Origin: an uncultured Pseudomonadales bacterium
GTDB lineage: Bacteria > Pseudomonadota > Gammaproteobacteria > Pseudomonadales > Porticoccaceae
Length of the DNA stretch: 64,000 bases
Assembly (NCBI GenBank): GCA_943788895.1
Contig: CALSRZ010000001.1
Span: forward strand, 124,001 to 188,000
Reading direction: 5' to 3'
Shown: positions 44,202 to 53,595 of the stretch, one piece after another
Layout of the letters: every line of letters begins with the position of its first letter
Numbering within the stretch: the first letter of the stretch is position 1
Made by a program: the position numbers and the translations under genes
Notes under the pieces: model-generated
Told to the model about the DNA's origin: nothing
Database searches by the model: none
Seen by the model: only the letters and a program-made list of their open reading frames with translations

Positions 44202-44368
44202 CTTTTTTGCAGCGCTTTAATCTGAAATAGTTTTATTCTACTGGTCGATATATGTAAAACCGCATAGACTCGGTTGTTTGCTTAGACTTTTTTAGGCATT
44301 ATGTTTAGCTATGGCTATGGAATAGCTTAAGTCAAACACGCAGGGACGTGAAAACAAGGAATGAAAAC

Positions 44369-45040
44369 ATGCACGTTCTCATAGTTGATGATCACGCTTT
44401 TGTCTGTGTTGGGCTAAAGGCAACACTTCATGACGAATATCCGAATATTGATGTAACAACCACCGATCATGGCGATACCGCACTGGTAACTCTTGCTCAG
44501 CAAAATATCGACCTGGTGATTGTCGATCTGTTTATGCCTGGCGCAGGCGGCGGTTTCAACTTTATTGCCATGCTCTGTGAGAGCTATCCTGAGCTCCCTA
44601 TTATTGTTCTCTCCGCGTCAGAAAATCCTGCGCATATCCGCAAGTGCCTGGATTACGGTGCTGCCGGGTTTGTAACCAAATCCGCGCCCAAAGATGCCTT
44701 GTTTGAGGCGATTTCAAAAGCCTTGAAAGGGGAGAAGTATGTTCCCGACTCACTGCGAGAGTCTATGCCTGATGTCGCCAGGGTTATGGATGAGGTTGAT
44801 ACCGGGGCAGATATAGAGATTATTTCAGGTCTGGTGACCAAGCGGCAGATGGAAATTTTGCGCCATATTACTCAGGGTCGATCGAATAAGCAGATTGCCA
44901 GGGATCTGGATCTGTCAGAAAACACAGTAAAAGTTCATGTCAGTGCAATGTTGCGCGCACTGGGCTTAACCAACCGTACTCAAGCAGGGATTTTGGGGCA
45001 AAAGCTAGGTCTGGATGAAAATTCTGAAATAGCGGATTAA
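44369..45040 (+). CDS. NarL/LuxR-type response regulator
   Basis: A 223-aa regulator: receiver with VLIVDDHAFV and the phospho-acceptor Asp in LVIVDLFMP, a linker, and a C-terminal LuxR helix-turn-helix (VTKRQMEILRHITQGRSNKQIARDL, then ENTVKVHVSAMLRALGL). The frame is open from GTG 44348, but ATG 44369 with ACAAGGA (44354-44360) is the better start. It lies between prsT and the receptor/kinase genes; its partner kinase may be the one at 48271 (inference). It is not an obvious GacA orthologue by sequence. Confidence 0.9.
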   Translation: MHVLIVDDHAFVCVGLKATLHDEYPNIDVTTTDHGDTALVTLAQQNIDLVIVDLFMPGAGGGFNFIAMLCESYPELPIIVLSASENPAHIRKCLDYGAAGFVTKSAPKDALFEAISKALKGEKYVPDSLRESMPDVARVMDEVDTGADIEIISGLVTKRQMEILRHITQGRSNKQIARDLDLSENTVKVHVSAMLRALGLTNRTQAGILGQKLGLDENSEIAD

Positions 45041-47283: not shown

Positions 47284-48271
47284 GTGACGCTATTTGATCC
47301 CTATAAGTTAATGGAGCCTGTTCGCCAGTCAGCTAAATGCTGGTTGGCGGGCCTGTTCCTGCTTGTATTTACCTGTAGCTATGCATTTGCGGATAGAAAA
47401 ATCCATGTTCTTTTTGTTGCCAGTAAACCTTCGGCTGATTATGTTGAAGTCTTAGACAGCGTTAAACAGCAACTGCAGAAGCAGAGTCCAGAGAGTTATG
47501 TGTTTAATACCAGATTTCGTACCTCAGAGCTCAGCCTCGAAGCTGATCTGGCTGCGGCAGATTTTGTCGTTACCGTAGGCACGGCTGCGGCTGATATGGC
47601 CTTTAGTAGTAAGTCCAAAGCGCCAATAATCAGTGTGCTGATCACTGAAAGTGCATTTTCAGCACTGGCTGAAAAATACTATGGTTCGATCGAAGACGCA
47701 TTTGCAGCAGGGGTATCCTCTATTTGTCTTGACCAGCCAGTTACACGCAGTATTCAATTAGCTAAGGTGCTGGTCTCAGGCTCATCAGAGCTTGGCGTGA
47801 TGCTCGGGCCAACATCAGTTCACAGGCAGGCCGAACTCAGCAAGTATATTAGTGACAGTGGCTTGCAGCCGCAGTTTGTTTCCTATCGGCGCCAAAGACA
47901 ACCCTATCCACAAGATCGAGCCTGTTCTCAGCCGCAGTGATGTTTTTATTCCAATCTCTGATAGCAGGCTAATCAATATCGCCACGGCGAAATGGATTTT
48001 ACATCTAAGTTATCGCTATAAGGTTCCGGTAATCGCCTTCTCAAAAAGTTACCTAAAAGCCGGGGCATTAGCCGCCATCTATTCTTCTCCAGCGGACGTC
48101 GCTAACGATACTGTCGAGTGGCTTATCAAATCAAAGAGTGCAACTGTTGGCGGTTCGTATAAGCCAGCCTATTACTCCCTGAAATTTAATCAATCTGTCG
48201 CTGCCAACTTAAAAATTAAGCTGCAAACTGAACAGTTCTATCGCGATCAGTTTAGTCTGGAGGTCAAATAA
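47284..48271 (+). pseudogene. periplasmic ABC-type substrate-binding protein, frameshifted
   Basis: Signal peptide (about residues 12-36, ending SYAFAD) and a two-lobe periplasmic binding fold like ABC_sub_bind/TrpX-type proteins: IHVLFVASKPSADYVEVLDS, VVTVGTAAADMA, GVMLGPTSVHRQ, then DVFIPISDSRLIN and VPVIAFSKSYLKAGA. The frame breaks at about C47887: removing it turns TAT-CGG-CGC into TAT-GGC-GCC and restores SYGAKDNPIHKIEPVLSRSD. Repaired length is about 328 aa. The start is GTG 47284 with TAGG upstream. No ABC permease or ATPase is nearby, so it probably serves the kinase (TAATG overlap). Confidence 0.82.
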
Positions 48272-49842
48272 TGGCTGTGGATAAACGATTTTCAAGTATT
48301 CACTCAAGGCTGCTTTTTACGTCATTATTGCCTTTGATACTTCTGTGTATGGTGTTGGCCGGCTATATGATTTCCAGTCAGCGGGTTGTGTTGCTGACCA
48401 ATCTAAAAAATATCGGCAATGTTGCGATTCAGCAACTGTCTTCAAATGCAGAGTTCGCGCTGTATTCCAATAACGAGGAAATGCTCAGAGATCTCGGTGA
48501 GTCGGTATTGGATATCCCTGCAGTTGAAGGGGTTACTTTTTACAATATCAATTTAAAAAGCAATATCACCATTGGCAGCTTTGATCTGACAGCGATAAAA
48601 GCTCAGGGCGAACCTGATTTTGCTAAACCGTTCTATGCGGATCATCTCTGGTACTTTTATGCGCCTATCGTTCGCGAGGGAATCCCCCTGCTTGATTATG
48701 ATGAAGGCGTCGTCCCAGAGTCAGAATTGTTGGGCTGGGTTGTGGTTTCCCTTACCGATGAAATACTGCTAGAGCAGAAACGCGAGGGTATCTTTGCGGT
48801 ACTGGTTGTATCCACATTGGGTTTGTTGATTGCGGCCTGGATTGCCATGCGAATCGGGCGCAGTATCTCTCGTCCGCTGGAAAACCTGACGGCAACAGTA
48901 GATACCATGGAGGCCGGCAATCTTAATCTTTTTGCCACTGAAGAGGGCCCGTTGGAGTTGCGCAAGCTGGCGTCGGGGATTAATCAGCTATCGACCAGTG
49001 TCCGTCAATACAATGTACGTATGCAGAGTGAAGTTGCTCGTGCCACCGCCCAGCTGCAGATTACCTTGATTGAGCTGGAAGATGCGATGGAGGCCCAGGA
49101 TCAGTTTCTGGCGCGAATGAGCCATGAGCTGCGCACACCACTGACAGCGGTTATTGGTTTCTCTAAGTTACTGGCAGCGGAGAGTGATGCTGGCAAGCGC
49201 GAAGAAAGTCTGCGTATTATTAGTATGTCGTCGAATATGTTGCTGACCATGATTGATGATATTTTGGAATTTTCCAAGGCTCGAGCCGGCGGATTTACCC
49301 TGGAAAAAGTCACTTTCGATATCGATTCATGGATGGCCGACCTCTTTGCTATTCACCAGCCGCGGGCGGAAGAGCGCGGGCTAACGCTCAATTACAATAT
49401 CGAAGACAGTGTTCCAAAATTAATGGTTGGCGATCCAGTGCGCTTCACCCAGGTCATTAGTAACTTGCTGAGCAATGCGGTTAAGTTTACCGATCAGGGC
49501 GGGGTAACTGTCGCTATTAGCTGCATAGCTGCCGAAGATAAGAATATTCTCTTGCACTGCTCTGTTGAAGATACTGGTAAGGGCATTAGAGAAGAAAAAA
49601 TCCCTGTGCTGTTTGATCCGTTTTCACAGGAAGATACCTCGATCAATCGACGCTTTGGCGGAGCTGGCTTAGGTCTTTCGATCTGTAAAAGCCTTGTTCA
49701 GGCAATGGGTGGTGAAATTAAAGTGCGCAGTAAGCTGGGGCAGGGGTCAGTATTTTCATTTACCTGTAAGTTAGCTGCAGGAGACAAGGATATAACTCAG
49801 CCGACAGATTGCCAATCCCCTGGAAAGTATGGATCCAAATAA
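48271..49842 (+). CDS. GacS/BarA-like sensor histidine kinase
   Basis: A 523-aa membrane kinase. First helix about 12-32 (LLFTSLLPLILLCMVLAGYM), a periplasmic sensor of about 140 residues with the GacS-like pattern SNNEEMLRDLGESVLDIPAVEG, second helix about 175-195, HAMP, a coiled coil, HisKA with His285 in ARMSHELRTPLTAVIGF, and HATPase_c with the N box (VISNLLSNAVKFTD), VEDTGKGI and GGAGLGLSICKSL. It stops 14 bases after the start of the receiver gene in the +1 frame, so an original hybrid kinase is possible. Confidence 0.9.
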   Translation: MAVDKRFSSIHSRLLFTSLLPLILLCMVLAGYMISSQRVVLLTNLKNIGNVAIQQLSSNAEFALYSNNEEMLRDLGESVLDIPAVEGVTFYNINLKSNITIGSFDLTAIKAQGEPDFAKPFYADHLWYFYAPIVREGIPLLDYDEGVVPESELLGWVVVSLTDEILLEQKREGIFAVLVVSTLGLLIAAWIAMRIGRSISRPLENLTATVDTMEAGNLNLFATEEGPLELRKLASGINQLSTSVRQYNVRMQSEVARATAQLQITLIELEDAMEAQDQFLARMSHELRTPLTAVIGFSKLLAAESDAGKREESLRIISMSSNMLLTMIDDILEFSKARAGGFTLEKVTFDIDSWMADLFAIHQPRAEERGLTLNYNIEDSVPKLMVGDPVRFTQVISNLLSNAVKFTDQGGVTVAISCIAAEDKNILLHCSVEDTGKGIREEKIPVLFDPFSQEDTSINRRFGGAGLGLSICKSLVQAMGGEIKVRSKLGQGSVFSFTCKLAAGDKDITQPTDCQSPGKYGSK

Positions 49843-50516
49843 AATCCTTGCTGGGGTTACTGTGCTTGTCGCGGAGGATAATGCTTTCAATCAGAAGTTG
49901 ATTGTGCGATTGCTCAATGCCTACGGTGCCAAATGCTTAACAGCAGACAATGGGCTTGAGGCAATCAAAATTGCTGAAAAACTGCATCTCGATGCTATCT
50001 TAATGGATATCCATATGCCGGTTGTCGATGGCATAACGGCCTGTGAGACCATTGTTCAGCAGTCTGGAGAGAGCCCGCCAATTATCGGTTTAACCGCTGA
50101 TGTGACCCTGAGCTGAGCAGGAGCGAATAAAAAAGGCCGGCGCAGTAAAGATGCTGTTAAAGCCCGTGGATGAGGATAAATTAATCAGTAGTCTGGCTCA
50201 GGTACTGCCGCAGTCTGGAAATGCGTCGGAAGGCGCTGGAATGGGATTGCTCTCAACTGTAGTACCAGTGGATGAGTTGAAAAAAGCCTTATATGAGAAT
50301 TTGGACAAATTAAAGAATCAGCTGAAAAATAGCGAGAATGGCAGCTTGCGTGGCATTATCCATGACCTTATGGGGTTGTCAGGCCTATACGGAATGTCCG
50401 AGCTGCGCGAGCTGGTTATGCAGTTCCGTGCTGATTATAGCAGCCTGAATGCCCAGCAAAACCTGGCCAGAGTAGAGGAAATTCGCCGACATATTGAAGG
50501 GTTTGTATTCGAGTAA
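49829..50516 (+). pseudogene. receiver plus HPt protein of the GacS-like kinase, frameshifted
   Basis: Receiver domain TVLVAEDNAFNQKL with phospho-acceptor Asp60 (ILMDIHMPVVDG), then an HPt domain with the His motif IIHDLMGLSGLYGMSEL. The frame breaks at T50114: AGC-TGA should read AGC-GAG, restoring SEQERIKKAGAVKMLLKPVDED with the conserved receiver Lys in LLKP. Repaired length is about 228 aa. REC-HPt after a HAMP-HisKA-HATPase kinase is the BarA/GacS/ArcB layout, here in two frames. Confidence 0.83.
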
Positions 50517-50598
50517 GGGTAGAGAACTCTGTCAATTAACTAATCCTTTGGTATTAACACGTCAGTGTAATATTTTTTTTGTTCAAACCCTCTTAATA

Positions 50599-50616
50599 TG
50601 TCAACTCGTATTGACT
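50599..50616 (+). promoter_or_regulatory. GacA-box-like palindrome
   Basis: TGTCAA-CTCGTA-TTGACT, an inverted repeat with one mismatch and the 6-6-6 spacing of the GacA/UvrY activating site TGTAAG-N6-CTTACA, but only about seven of twelve arm bases agree. It lies upstream of the candidate small RNA. The right arm could also serve as a -35 hexamer. Confidence 0.4.
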
Positions 50617-50639
50617 CCCTAGCATGATGCGTACAAAGG

Positions 50640-50990
50640 GACTCTACTGGTGACTGGATAACAGACCTACACTGCTGTTTAACAGATCGCGCTAATAAGC
50701 ATAATGCTTGTGGCTAGGTTGACAGGGAGTTGACCACCAAGGACGGAAAGCCAATTAGCTAACACCTTTAGATTTGTAAAAATACATGGCGACTAGGAAG
50801 TCGTGCACCAAGGACGGTGCGAGTCAGTATAAAATTTTTGAGTCTTTTTGTGAGCTCCAAAATTTTAGTAGTTTTTACCTTTCACAATTCCCGGTACTTT
50901 TTGTTTATTTACTCTAGTTTTCTCTATTTTTCTAGTTAGTATTTTTAAACCTCGGGCCTGAACCTGTTTCAGTTAGCCCGAGTTTTTTTT
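50640..50990 (+). ncRNA. candidate CsrA/RsmA-sequestering small RNA (CsrB/RsmZ type)
   Basis: The 598-base gap 50517-51114 has no credible gene. It holds six GGA motifs in about 160 bases. Two are in perfect hairpin loops: CGACT-AGGA-AGTCG (50790-50803) and GCACC-AAGGAC-GGTGC (50805-50820). A 12-base string CACCAAGGACGG occurs twice (50735-50746 and 50806-50817). TGGCT/AGCCA (50711-50715 and 50749-50753) encloses further GGA sites. A strong terminator ends at 50990; a weaker hairpin with T-run at 50831-50876 could give a shorter RNA. The 5' end is uncertain (50640-50712). Confidence 0.6.
50951..50990 (+). terminator. intrinsic terminator of the candidate small RNA
   Basis: CTCGGGC-CTGAA-CCTGT-TTCAG-TTA-GCCCGAG followed by eight T. 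It is 125 bases before rnr and 435 bases after the HPt gene, so it most likely ends a transcript that starts in the gap. Confidence 0.88.
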
Positions 50991-51030
50991 GTCTGGAGAA
51001 TTTCTTTTACTCAACCGCCTATAAGGCATA

Positions 51031-51073
51031 GACTGCGTCACTCTATAAGACCGACTTCGTCACTTTACAAGAC
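51031..51073 (+). repeat. imperfect 21-base direct repeat upstream of rnr
   Basis: GACTGCGTCACTCTATAAGAC and GACTTCGTCACTTTACAAGAC, separated by one base (three or four differences). A third, weaker relative may begin at 51020. It could be a protein-binding array in the rnr leader; nothing else supports a function. Confidence 0.4.
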
Positions 51074-51114
51074 ATAGAGCTGCGAAGTAAAAACTCTCGA
51101 CAAAAAGAAATCCT

Positions 51115-53595
51115 ATGCCTCGAAAAAGTAAAAACATTGATCCCTATGCGACTCGCGAAGCCGCTAAATACCAGCGTCCAATCCCAAGCCGGGAGTTTGT
51201 TCTCGACTATCTGCATGAAAGTGTGGGTCCGCTGACCCACGGTGAAATCTGTGCAGCACTCAAATTGGTGGATGATGAGCAGGTAGAAGCCATGCGCCGT
51301 CGCTTGCGCGCCATGGAGCGTGACGGGCAGATAGCCAGCAATAGAACCGGTGGCTATGGCACTCTCGACAAGCTCAATCTGGTCAAGGGCCGCGTGATTG
51401 GTCATCCTGAGGGCTATGGGTTTGTAACGCCGATTCAGGGTGGTGATCAGGATATCTATCTTTCAAGCCGCCAGATGCGACGGGTATTTGATGGTGACAT
51501 CGTTCTGCTGAGAATCGCTGGCTGGGATAGGCGTGGCCGCCCGGAAGGCAAATTGGTCGATGTGGTTGAGCGCAAAACTCAGCAGCTGGTTGGCCGTTAT
51601 TTTTGTGAGAGCGGCATTCACTTTGTGCGCCCAGACAATCCGCGTATCAGCCAGGATATATTAATTCCCGCAGATCAGCTCAGCGGTGCCGAGGCCGGCC
51701 AGATTGTTCTCGTCGATATTACCGAGGGACCCTCTCGCAACAGCCCACCCACAGGGCGCATCAGTGAAGTGTTGGGTGATCATCTGGATCCAGGTTTGGA
51801 AATTGAAGTTTCTATTCGCAACTACGGTATTCCCCATCAGTGGGACAATGATGTAGTTGCCGAAACCGATGCTATACCGGATCAGGTCACCGACAAGGAT
51901 TTTCGCGTTGATTTAAGATCATTGCCGCTGGTAACCATTGATGGCGAAGATGCCCGAGATTTCGATGATGCGGTTTACTGTCAGCCAAAACCCCGCGGCG
52001 GCTGGAAGCTGATCGTTGCGATTGCCGATGTTTCCCACTACGTAAAACCCGGCAGTGCACTGGATAAACAAGCCTTTGAGCGCGGCAACTCGGTTTACTT
52101 CCCCAACCATGTAGTACCCATGTTGCCGGAAAAGCTCTCCAATGGTCTCTGTTCTCTAAATCCCAAAGAAGATCGCCTCTGTATGGTCTGCGAAATGCAG
52201 ATTAACGCTGAGGGTGATGTCACCAAATACCAGTTTTACGAAGCGCTTATGTATTCTCATGCGCGGCTCACCTACACCCAGGTGGCGCAGATTATCGAAG
52301 AGAGAAATAGCGGTGACTCCTCCAATGCCCGAGATCAGTTCTCGGCAATACTTCCGCATATAGATGCGCTCTATGATCTTTACAGCAGACTGAACAAGCG
52401 CCGCAATGAACGCGGTGCGATTGATTTTGATACTCAGGAAACACGCATACTCTTTGATGGGCAGCGCAAGATAAGCCAGATTATCCCGGTCAAGCGCACA
52501 GAAGCTCACCGGCTTATTGAAGAATGTATGTTGGCCGCCAATGTCTGCACCGCGCAATTCCTTGAAAAAGCTAAGTTGCCAGCCCTTTACCGTGTCCACG
52601 AAGGCCCCAGTGAAGAACGCCTGTCCTCTCTCAGAGACTTTCTTGGTGAGCTGGGCATTGGCCTTGGGGGTGGCGATGATCCGCAGCCTGAGGACTATCA
52701 GCGAGTTCTGCGGTCGGTTGGCCAGCGTGACGATGCCTCGGTTATTCAGTCGGTGATGCTGCGCTCAATGAGCCAGGCGGTCTATCAATCGGAAAACCTC
52801 GGCCATTTTGGTCTGGCATTTGATGCCTACACCCACTTCACTTCACCTATTCGTCGCTATTCGGATCTCTTGGTGCATCGCGCTATTCGCTACCTGATTC
52901 GCAGCAATAAAAAAGTTTCCGGTGTTGTCCGTGTTAAGGGCGCCGCTGAACTTGCCAAAGATAATATCTACCCCTACGAACTGCCGCGACTGGATGAAAC
53001 TGGATCGCACCTCTCGGTTACCGAGCGACGTGCCGATGAGGCGACTCGCGATGTAGTCAACTGGCTTAAATGTGAGTACCTGATGGATCACGTCGGTGAG
53101 GAATACAGCGGTGTTGTCAGTGCGGTAACCGGTTTTGGCCTGTTTGTGATGCTCGATGACCTGTATGTCGAGGGACTGATTCATGTGACCGGCCTGCCCA
53201 AGGATTATTATTATCACGAAGCCAGTCAGCACCGTATGGTTGGCGAGCGTACCGGGCGTGTTTTCCGTCTCGGTGATAAAGTTAAAGTCAGGGTGGTGCG
53301 GGTTAATTTAGATGAGCGCAAGATTGATTTTGAACTGGCCGAACAGCCGAAATCTTCAGGTTCTCCTGGGGCAAAGAAATCAGCAAAGGTAAAAGTCTCG
53401 GCAAAAGCTAAAGAGCTGGCCCGAGAGCATGAGACTAAACGCAAATCTAATGGGAAAAAGAAAAAAGGCTCTGGCCGTTCCGATACCGCGGCCAAGGGAA
53501 AGTCCTCGAAGAGACGTCGCAATGCCGCGCCAGGTTCAGGTAAAAAGCGCGGTGCCTCCTCCTCATCAGCAGGAAAGAAAAAACCTTCCCGCTAG
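51115..53595 (+). CDS. rnr: ribonuclease R
   Basis: An 826-aa 3'-5' exoribonuclease degrading structured RNA. Order: N-terminal winged helix (REFVLDYLHESVGPLTHGEI), two cold-shock domains (GRVIGHPEGYGFVTP), the RNB catalytic domain with IDGEDARDFDDAV (acidic metal ligands), S1 domain (YSGVVSAVTGFGLFVMLDD), and a Lys/Ser-rich tail of about 70 residues typical of RNase R. Full length. The rlmB gene that often follows is absent here. Confidence 0.95.
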   Translation: MPRKSKNIDPYATREAAKYQRPIPSREFVLDYLHESVGPLTHGEICAALKLVDDEQVEAMRRRLRAMERDGQIASNRTGGYGTLDKLNLVKGRVIGHPEGYGFVTPIQGGDQDIYLSSRQMRRVFDGDIVLLRIAGWDRRGRPEGKLVDVVERKTQQLVGRYFCESGIHFVRPDNPRISQDILIPADQLSGAEAGQIVLVDITEGPSRNSPPTGRISEVLGDHLDPGLEIEVSIRNYGIPHQWDNDVVAETDAIPDQVTDKDFRVDLRSLPLVTIDGEDARDFDDAVYCQPKPRGGWKLIVAIADVSHYVKPGSALDKQAFERGNSVYFPNHVVPMLPEKLSNGLCSLNPKEDRLCMVCEMQINAEGDVTKYQFYEALMYSHARLTYTQVAQIIEERNSGDSSNARDQFSAILPHIDALYDLYSRLNKRRNERGAIDFDTQETRILFDGQRKISQIIPVKRTEAHRLIEECMLAANVCTAQFLEKAKLPALYRVHEGPSEERLSSLRDFLGELGIGLGGGDDPQPEDYQRVLRSVGQRDDASVIQSVMLRSMSQAVYQSENLGHFGLAFDAYTHFTSPIRRYSDLLVHRAIRYLIRSNKKVSGVVRVKGAAELAKDNIYPYELPRLDETGSHLSVTERRADEATRDVVNWLKCEYLMDHVGEEYSGVVSAVTGFGLFVMLDDLYVEGLIHVTGLPKDYYYHEASQHRMVGERTGRVFRLGDKVKVRVVRVNLDERKIDFELAEQPKSSGSPGAKKSAKVKVSAKAKELAREHETKRKSNGKKKKGSGRSDTAAKGKSSKRRRNAAPGSGKKRGASSSSAGKKKPSR

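Follow-up and report, generated by a model that had tools for sequence, protein, structure and literature searches.

A conserved structured RNA upstream of rnr in SAR92 bacteria, a probable Csr/Rsm-type sponge

Among the described small RNAs to which the locus reported here comes closest are CsrB and CsrC of Escherichia coli, in which GGA elements lie in hairpin loops, and RsmZ of Pseudomonas. The ligands of RsmE present A(N)GGAX loops on stems closed by C-G, AGGGA pentaloops being of high affinity (PMC4005645, passages on loop types), and the ANGGAN hexaloop and the SELEX consensus have been given for CsrA (PMC7652899, passages on binding). The box bound by GacA/UvrY has the consensus TGTAAG-N6-CTTACA (PMC4682653, passage on the consensus). 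Upstream of rnr in a SAR92 genome, comparison with relatives reveals a conserved gene for a predicted structured RNA, which is probably a Csr/Rsm-type sponge RNA. A conserved promoter block and a predicted terminator frame it, and its multi-branched domain is closed by a helix and keeps GGA in its hairpin loops. Among the matches listed, the open-licence literature contained no SAR92 Csr RNA and no description of the four-hairpin element discussed below, a weak negative.

The SAR92 clade comprises abundant, partly cultured marine heterotrophs. The window analyzed here is a stretch of 64,000 nucleotides from a SAR92 genome of 1.95 Mb that is 93% complete. Judged by rnr, its closest relatives with a name are an uncultured Pseudomonadales MAG (L093), SAR92 BACL16 (L094), HTCC2207 (L095), and MOLA455 (L096); HTCC2207, a marine gammaproteobacterium (G036), and MOLA455 (G037) both fall within the genus of the host. 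The RNA locus is flanked by a sensor-kinase cluster on one side and, on the other, by rnr, which encodes RNase R (51115–53595, Pfam RNB) and, like the RNA with its parts and promoter and the kinase and regulator genes described below, lies on the forward strand. The RNA is predicted at 50606–50990, about 385 nt, its start placed from a −10 element and its end from a run of T. A block TTTTACTC...CATAGACT, probably the rnr promoter, precedes rnr at 51000–51050 of the window and stands at the same place in relatives, also in those that have no RNA, for example L046 and L049, so that rnr seems to own a separate promoter.

Every feature that the first-pass annotation had named in this gap is indeed there. 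GGA trinucleotides start at 50639, 50656, 50726, 50741, 50745, 50796, and 50812, and the last six of these seven fall inside 159 bases, in agreement with the six motifs in about 160 bases that it had counted; its hairpins CGACT-AGGA-AGTCG (50790–50803) and GCACC-AAGGAC-GGTGC (50805–50820) are both found, as are an exact 12-base repeat CACCAAGGACGG, with copies at 50735 and 50806, and a strong terminator with eight T. The longest ORF within the RNA is 43 aa. A third GGA hairpin, GGTTGAC-AGGGA-GTTGACC at 50717–50735, had been missed. The raw number of GGA is ordinary and not above chance (seven, vs. 4.7 ± 1.7 in dinucleotide shuffles), and raw enrichment was dropped as evidence since 40 of 300 shuffles reach seven. 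The placement and the conservation of GGA are beyond chance. Three sites lie in loops of hairpins of at least five pairs, which is reached by 1 of 2000 shuffles and by 3 of 1312 segments of 388 nt that cover the 64 kb on either strand, with the locus among them. The folding energy of the whole gap is weak (z −1.64; 8 of 100 shuffles are equally good).

The fold was derived from an alignment of 20 domains (A2), which omits from 23 loci L035, at a contig end, and L039 and L040, whose 3′ part is altered. It contains 43 pairs in eight helices and is multi-branched: a long-range closing helix is followed by a helix of two pairs, a GGA-free hairpin (H3), and a long arm with H5 and H6, and then by H7 and H8 at the 3′ end. 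Over the 20 domains 98.1% of the pair cells are paired and 15 of the 43 pairs show a double change, as counted on the same alignment that gave the fold. Pairing, double changes, and the covariation score are equalled by none of 500 shuffles; of five measures one, further pair types, is not above the shuffles (418 of 500). Control folds slid along the alignment pair in just 28–39%, and G-U pairs are tolerated in the stems. A covariance model of the domain (R1) matches the window at 50609–50829 with 219 bits, the window sequence being among those from which the model was built.

In the closing helix, ATTGACTC at 50610–50617 pairs with GAGTCAGT at 50821–50828 (99.4% of cells paired, double change in two of eight pairs); in most relatives the partner of ATTGACTC is GAGTCAAT. 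The 5′ part holds an unpaired GGA within AAAGGGA (50639–50641), present in 20/20 domains, and H3 has GGA in none of its 20 loops and CTACA in every one. The arm (50691–50759) is closed by H4, GCTAA/TTAGC, with a double change in four of five pairs, and comprises H5, H6, and an unpaired AAGGA. H5, AAGC-ATAAT-GCTT (50697–50709), has lost its loop GGA in the window, and GGA is found in 16 of 20 loops, as AGGAY in most relatives. H6, the hairpin with the AGGGA pentaloop already mentioned, keeps GGA in 20/20 loops (AGGGA in 19) and shows a double change in three of seven pairs; the unpaired GGA in the first CACCAAGGACGG (50741–50743) is likewise present in all 20. GGA is found in 19 of 20 loops of H7 (CGACT-AGGA-AGTCG) and in every loop of H8 (GCACC-AAGGAC-GGTGC), whose loop is an ANGGAN-type hexaloop, with seven bases in one case. 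Of the two stems whose covariation the first-pass annotation had put forward as a check, H8 carries a double change from A-U to G-C in 10 of 20 domains, and H7 is paired in 97.5% of cells and has no double change.

No trinucleotide is more frequent than GGA in the strong hairpin loops of the 20 domains (64 occurrences vs. 47 of AGG). In the loop of H8 the A and the GGA are fixed and the N positions vary, a predicted loop pattern that is the A(N)GGAX signature of the RsmE ligands, and the loop types of the RNA match known ligands of CsrA/RsmE. GGA is what four loops of otherwise unlike sequence have in common, and the N positions of ANGGAN are variable, a pattern that points to the CsrA family. 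The same two facts, together with the presence of CsrA in the genome, argue against a structured RNA whose GGA loops serve some other partner, a base-pairing target or another RNA-binding protein; this explanation is improbable, even though the fold goes beyond a simple hairpin array, has a long-range closing helix, and includes a GGA-free hairpin whose CTACA loop is invariant. Against a CsrA sponge was counted that the copy in the window has no GGA in one of the four loops. The titration of CsrA proposed in the first-pass annotation nevertheless finds support, judged from sequence, in a conserved RNA gene, a covarying fold, GGA kept in drifting loops, loop types of known ligands, and the presence of CsrA.

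The absence of a CsrA homologue from the genome had been named as grounds for giving up the proposal, and a csrA gene is present: it was found in 32 of 36 genomes and in all 27 of good quality, the host included. The host protein aligns over residues 1–56 with the carbon storage regulator homolog 1vpz (E 1.5e-28; 50 of 56 residues identical, counted from the alignment), the closest solved chain, which we take to be RsmA of Pseudomonas. Residues L4 and R44, which are marked in a figure legend on CsrA (PMC7652899, legend), are present in the host protein on inspection. Four genomes (G003, G007, G015, and G019) have CsrA without a match to the promoter described below, so CsrA there manages without the RNA. 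In the mechanism proposed for a CsrA sponge, activation of the promoter would cause the RNA to be made and to accumulate, each domain would bind several CsrA subunits or dimers, and the RNA would draw CsrA off mRNAs, by which CsrA-repressed mRNAs would be freed; more units per RNA would mean a greater capacity for CsrA. Transcription, CsrA binding, and titration, as well as the identity of the activator, are what we infer from the features of the locus.

The probable activator site is a conserved promoter block of 33 bases at 50539–50571, which consists of the inverted repeat CTAATnCTTnnGTATTAA and, after it, CGTCAGTGTAAT. It corresponds to the upstream palindrome to which the first-pass annotation had ascribed GacA-box spacing; the inverted repeat is real and conserved, but it is no GacA box: even when three mismatches are allowed, TGTAAG-N6-CTTACA is not found in the gap, and the 16 places where it matches in the window are fewer than the 24.4 expected. 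Many columns of the block are near-invariant in 28 aligned sequences, and its pattern (up to three mismatches) is found in 28 of 50 genomes of the genus, with exactly one site in each and none for the reversed pattern, so that the site seems dedicated to the RNA gene. The block is 79–94% identical to the window in six of seven pairwise comparisons and 63% in that with L033, and it is the best conserved part in five of the seven; the terminator scores higher in L028 and the domain in L033. A probable −10 element, TAATAT at 50594–50599, follows 22 bases past the block and is TAnnnT in relatives, with the T, the A, and the final T invariant in 28 aligned promoters; no −35 consensus was seen, and the element would be read by sigma-70.

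The predicted intrinsic terminator consists of the stem CTCGGGC/GCCCGAG and T8 at 50951–50990. A stem of −12 kcal/mol or lower stands ahead of the T-run in 14 of 16 loci, the window included, and is weak in L038 and L041; the count covers 16 of 20 loci, a 17th having no T-run. Neither the proposed promoter nor the terminator is reported by a simple consensus scan, which allows terminator loops of up to 8, vs. 18 in this one. That the RNA is an rnr leader with cis-acting control of RNase R is very unlikely: it does immediately precede rnr in the same orientation, but a terminator stands between the two, and the TTTTACTC...CATAGACT block persists in relatives without the RNA.

The Gac-type control assumed in the first-pass annotation finds no support, given the missing box, the lack of any UvrY/SirA/GacA protein over the curated cut-off in the 50 genomes of the genus (control genomes: 1 of 14), and the lack of an Rfam CsrB or RsmZ match. 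A GacA beside uvrC was looked for and is absent. The candidate activator is a NarL/FixJ-type response regulator (44348–45040) with a GerE domain over cut-off, the only such protein in the genome (93% complete); as a UvrY ortholog it was ruled out, with 81.8 bits vs. a cut-off of 280. It opens a cluster in which a TonB receptor, a putative periplasmic protein without family match, a BarA-like sensor kinase, a receiver, and a probable Hpt part follow, and which ends at the RNA. The kinase (48271–49842) has HAMP, HisKA, and HATPase domains and a borderline sCache_4 domain, which scored 21.4 bits in one search (cut-off 22.1, not reached) and 24.4 in another (reached); its best NCBIfam model is BarA, at 337.8 bits far under the cut-off of 890. 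The stretch at 49829–50516 encodes the receiver (Response_reg) and a C-terminal, probably Hpt, part of the kinase system in frames that differ in the window; its second ORF has no Pfam match and a weak match to a hybrid-kinase C-terminus (E 0.0007). Shifted frames at 47284–48271, in the putative periplasmic protein, and at 48271–50516, in kinase, receiver, and Hpt part, each correspond to one frame in the close relative G017 and are assembly errors or decay.

Orthologs of the regulator (E below 1e-60) are found in 34 of 50 genomes, and the regulator lies upstream of rnr in 10 of 20 loci inspected, which were chosen to include genomes without it. Promoter and regulator occur together in 25 of the 50 genomes, the promoter alone in three, the regulator alone in nine, and neither in 13 (Fisher P 0.0005, which takes genomes as independent despite their relatedness); two of the nine regulator-only genomes, G016 and G001, do carry the RNA. 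The BarA-like kinase and the NarL-type regulator thus usually, if not always, accompany the RNA, so cluster and RNA come and go largely together. A strict linkage of RNA and regulator was ruled out by the three of 28 promoter-bearing genomes without a linked regulator. In HTCC2207 (G036, locus L187), G004, and G054 (loci L186 and L188) the RNA and its promoter are kept, the regulator is gone, and the kinase is wholly or largely gone. G019, G058, and G042 have the regulator and the kinase and no TonB receptor, and their gaps (L050, L066, and L056), judged by eye, contain no such RNA. With less confidence than for titration, we infer that the BarA-like kinase and NarL-type regulator of the adjacent cluster switch the promoter instead of canonical GacA.

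A DNA search with the gap gave matches in 14 of 36 genomes, the host included; that in G006 is 42 bases only, on a different contig from its rnr. The rnr gene was found in 44 of 50 genomes of the genus and on the same contig in 44 of 46 upstream-of-rnr loci, and rplS and rnr are direct neighbors in G003, G007, G043, G045, and G015. The GGA-rich unit is present at 23 loci from 23 genomes, and five of these have more than one: two in L029 and in L036, three in L034, at least three in L035 (contig end), and four in L037. Repeated units are spaced by 163–172 nt, in L029 by 236 nt; their alignment (A1) omits unit 4 of L037 and L040 out of 31 units. The first-pass annotation had asked whether the stems outlast drifting flanks, and in seven of seven pairwise comparisons the RNA domain (68–86% identical to the window) is better conserved than the U-rich linker (36–59%). 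The stretch from terminator to rnr is 58–76% identical and in L039 exceeds the domain (75 vs. 71).

R1 gave strong matches in six genomes of the genus, the host included, among 293 of the order, and on 32 of 80 named rnr loci it matched six (L093 to L098), all SAR92/Porticoccaceae or near relatives, and none in L099, L100, or the 24 others scanned. In the small-genome relatives L070, L071, L072, L074, and L075 the promoter block is kept and the RNA is shorter and diverged, with GGA elsewhere and an H8-like loop that reads ATAGAT or ATAGAC. In G014 the locus before rnr (L073) shows a promoterless remnant of the short RNA, and csrA was not found in that genome (84% complete).

Four weak R1 matches in other genera (about 22 bits), which share just the 3′ hairpin and the closing strand, were rejected as homologues; they are parts of a dispersed element or, for L212, a diverged stretch. 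What they have in common with H8 and the closing strand is GCRCCANGGANGGYGCGARTCAAT or most of it, and three of the four lie within another structure. When up to two mismatches are allowed, 28 of 293 genomes contain GCRCCANGGANGGYGCGARTCAAT, SAR92 accounting for five of these (one genome for the reversed string), and one genome of the same family has it 14 times; several two-mismatch places without the rest of the element look like chance, for example L220, L221, and L227. The full element is about 80 nt long and forms four predicted hairpins. Its alignment (A3) comprises 29 copies, three near-duplicates being omitted out of 32, and shows a double change in 20 of 23 pairs, with none of 500 shuffles reaching it on any of the five measures. 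The search patterns left the N positions and the stems mostly free. GGA is found in loop A in 28 of 29 copies and in loops B and C in one each, and ANGGAN in loop D in 29/29, loop counts that are partly by construction, as both patterns used to select the copies included GGA.

An element model (R2), built without the SAR92 sponge RNA but with two element copies from the genus (L247 and L248), matches 141 of 369 gammaproteobacterial genomes with E no higher than 0.001. Of the 12 loci fetched for the best matches, 8 contain a tRNA or tmRNA gene, and in all 20 matches within the 12 loci loop A carries GGA and loop D is ANGGAN, which the model favors. Examples of the element are L213:1449–1677, L214:1174–1603, L215:1491–1582, L248:3091–3177, and L268:1501–1583, among others; in L213–L215 tandem elements lie behind tRNA or tmRNA genes, inserted in an apparent T-loop remnant. 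Rfam at gathering reported only tRNA and tmRNA in 17 loci with element copies, and in four further element loci some sub-gathering Rfam matches overlap the element.

Of the 28 SAR92 loci upstream of rnr, R2 also matches 20 with E no higher than 0.0025 and L040 with an E of 0.23, missing L039 and the six diverged loci, and in the alignments shown H7, H8, and GAGTCAAT fall on the 3′ part of the element; the window scores 29.7 bits (E 9e-5). For comparison, a single match with a similar score (L118, 32.2 bits) turned up in 643 kb of other named loci. The likeness of the 3′ hairpins to the element may reflect shared descent or convergence on CsrA. It is possible, if rather doubtful, that the SAR92 RNA grew from this dispersed element near tRNA/tmRNA genes, whose two Csr-type loops would make it a widespread reservoir of CsrA sites, absent from Rfam as far as scanned, that gives birth to sponge RNAs, which would then be amplified unit by unit under a non-GacA regulator. 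There is little probability that the locus itself is a DNA-level repeat or mobile hairpin element, conserved through recognition of a DNA hairpin and not as an RNA regulator, for although its 3′ part matches the dispersed element and its units are multiplied in some species, it occupies a single locus per genome with a conserved promoter block, has a good terminator in most loci, and tolerates G-U pairs in its stems.

A Csr sponge in SAR92, if real, would give CsrA, which acts as a global switch of carbon use and lifestyle, a place in the cycling of carbon in the ocean. The natural series of one, two, three, and four units would allow CsrA activity to be followed as a function of sponge capacity. 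Control by a regulator other than canonical GacA, if true, would show a swappable front end of the pathway, and a dispersed element that binds CsrA, if true, would amount to an unrecognized load of CsrA sites in many genomes.

Rfam at gathering reports no family in the 64 kb window, and with E up to 10 over 49800–51200 it gives just a chance-level Pseudomon-1 match over the terminator; a check with the CsrB and PrrB_RsmZ models, suggested in the first-pass annotation, found no match in the window to either, nor to CsrC or RsmY. RsmZ of Pseudomonas (PrrB_RsmZ) resembles the SAR92 RNA in having more than one stem-loop in which an A(N)GGAX loop sits on a stem closed by C-G, in a single-stranded GGA site between stem-loops, and in its terminator (PMC4005645, passages on RsmZ). 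The SAR92 RNA differs from it in length (385 vs. 127 nt), in the closed multi-branched domain, and in having no Rfam match and no GacA box; rsmZ is also reported, in a passage on its position, to lie beside a ferredoxin gene, unlike the SAR92 RNA (PMC9788540). CsrB and CsrC of E. coli share GGA elements in hairpin loops, and CsrB is governed by a BarA-type kinase, as a passage on its control states (PMC7652899), just as a BarA-like kinase adjoins the SAR92 RNA; CsrB has 22 GGA vs. seven in the window RNA, which does not match it in Rfam, and the SAR92 GGA sites, unlike those of CsrB and CsrC, lie in a unit repeated every 163–172 nt where it is repeated, with no UvrY over cut-off. The rrA, rrB, and rrF RNAs of E. 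coli, likened here by description and not by sequence, show interaction with CsrA in vitro and belong with operons for stable RNA, which parallels the link of the dispersed element to tRNA genes, although these are rRNA operons (PMC8144298, abstract). CsrR2 of Alcanivorax dieselolei, also compared by description and not by sequence, is another CsrA-related RNA from a marine gammaproteobacterium, in which six GGA motifs are unpaired; it lies near an hpt gene in the same direction and, unlike the SAR92 RNA, is also antisense to a ferredoxin gene (PMC9788540, passages on CsrR2). Next to these systems, the SAR92 RNA, which has no Rfam entry, stands out by the amplification of its unit and by its probable control other than by GacA.
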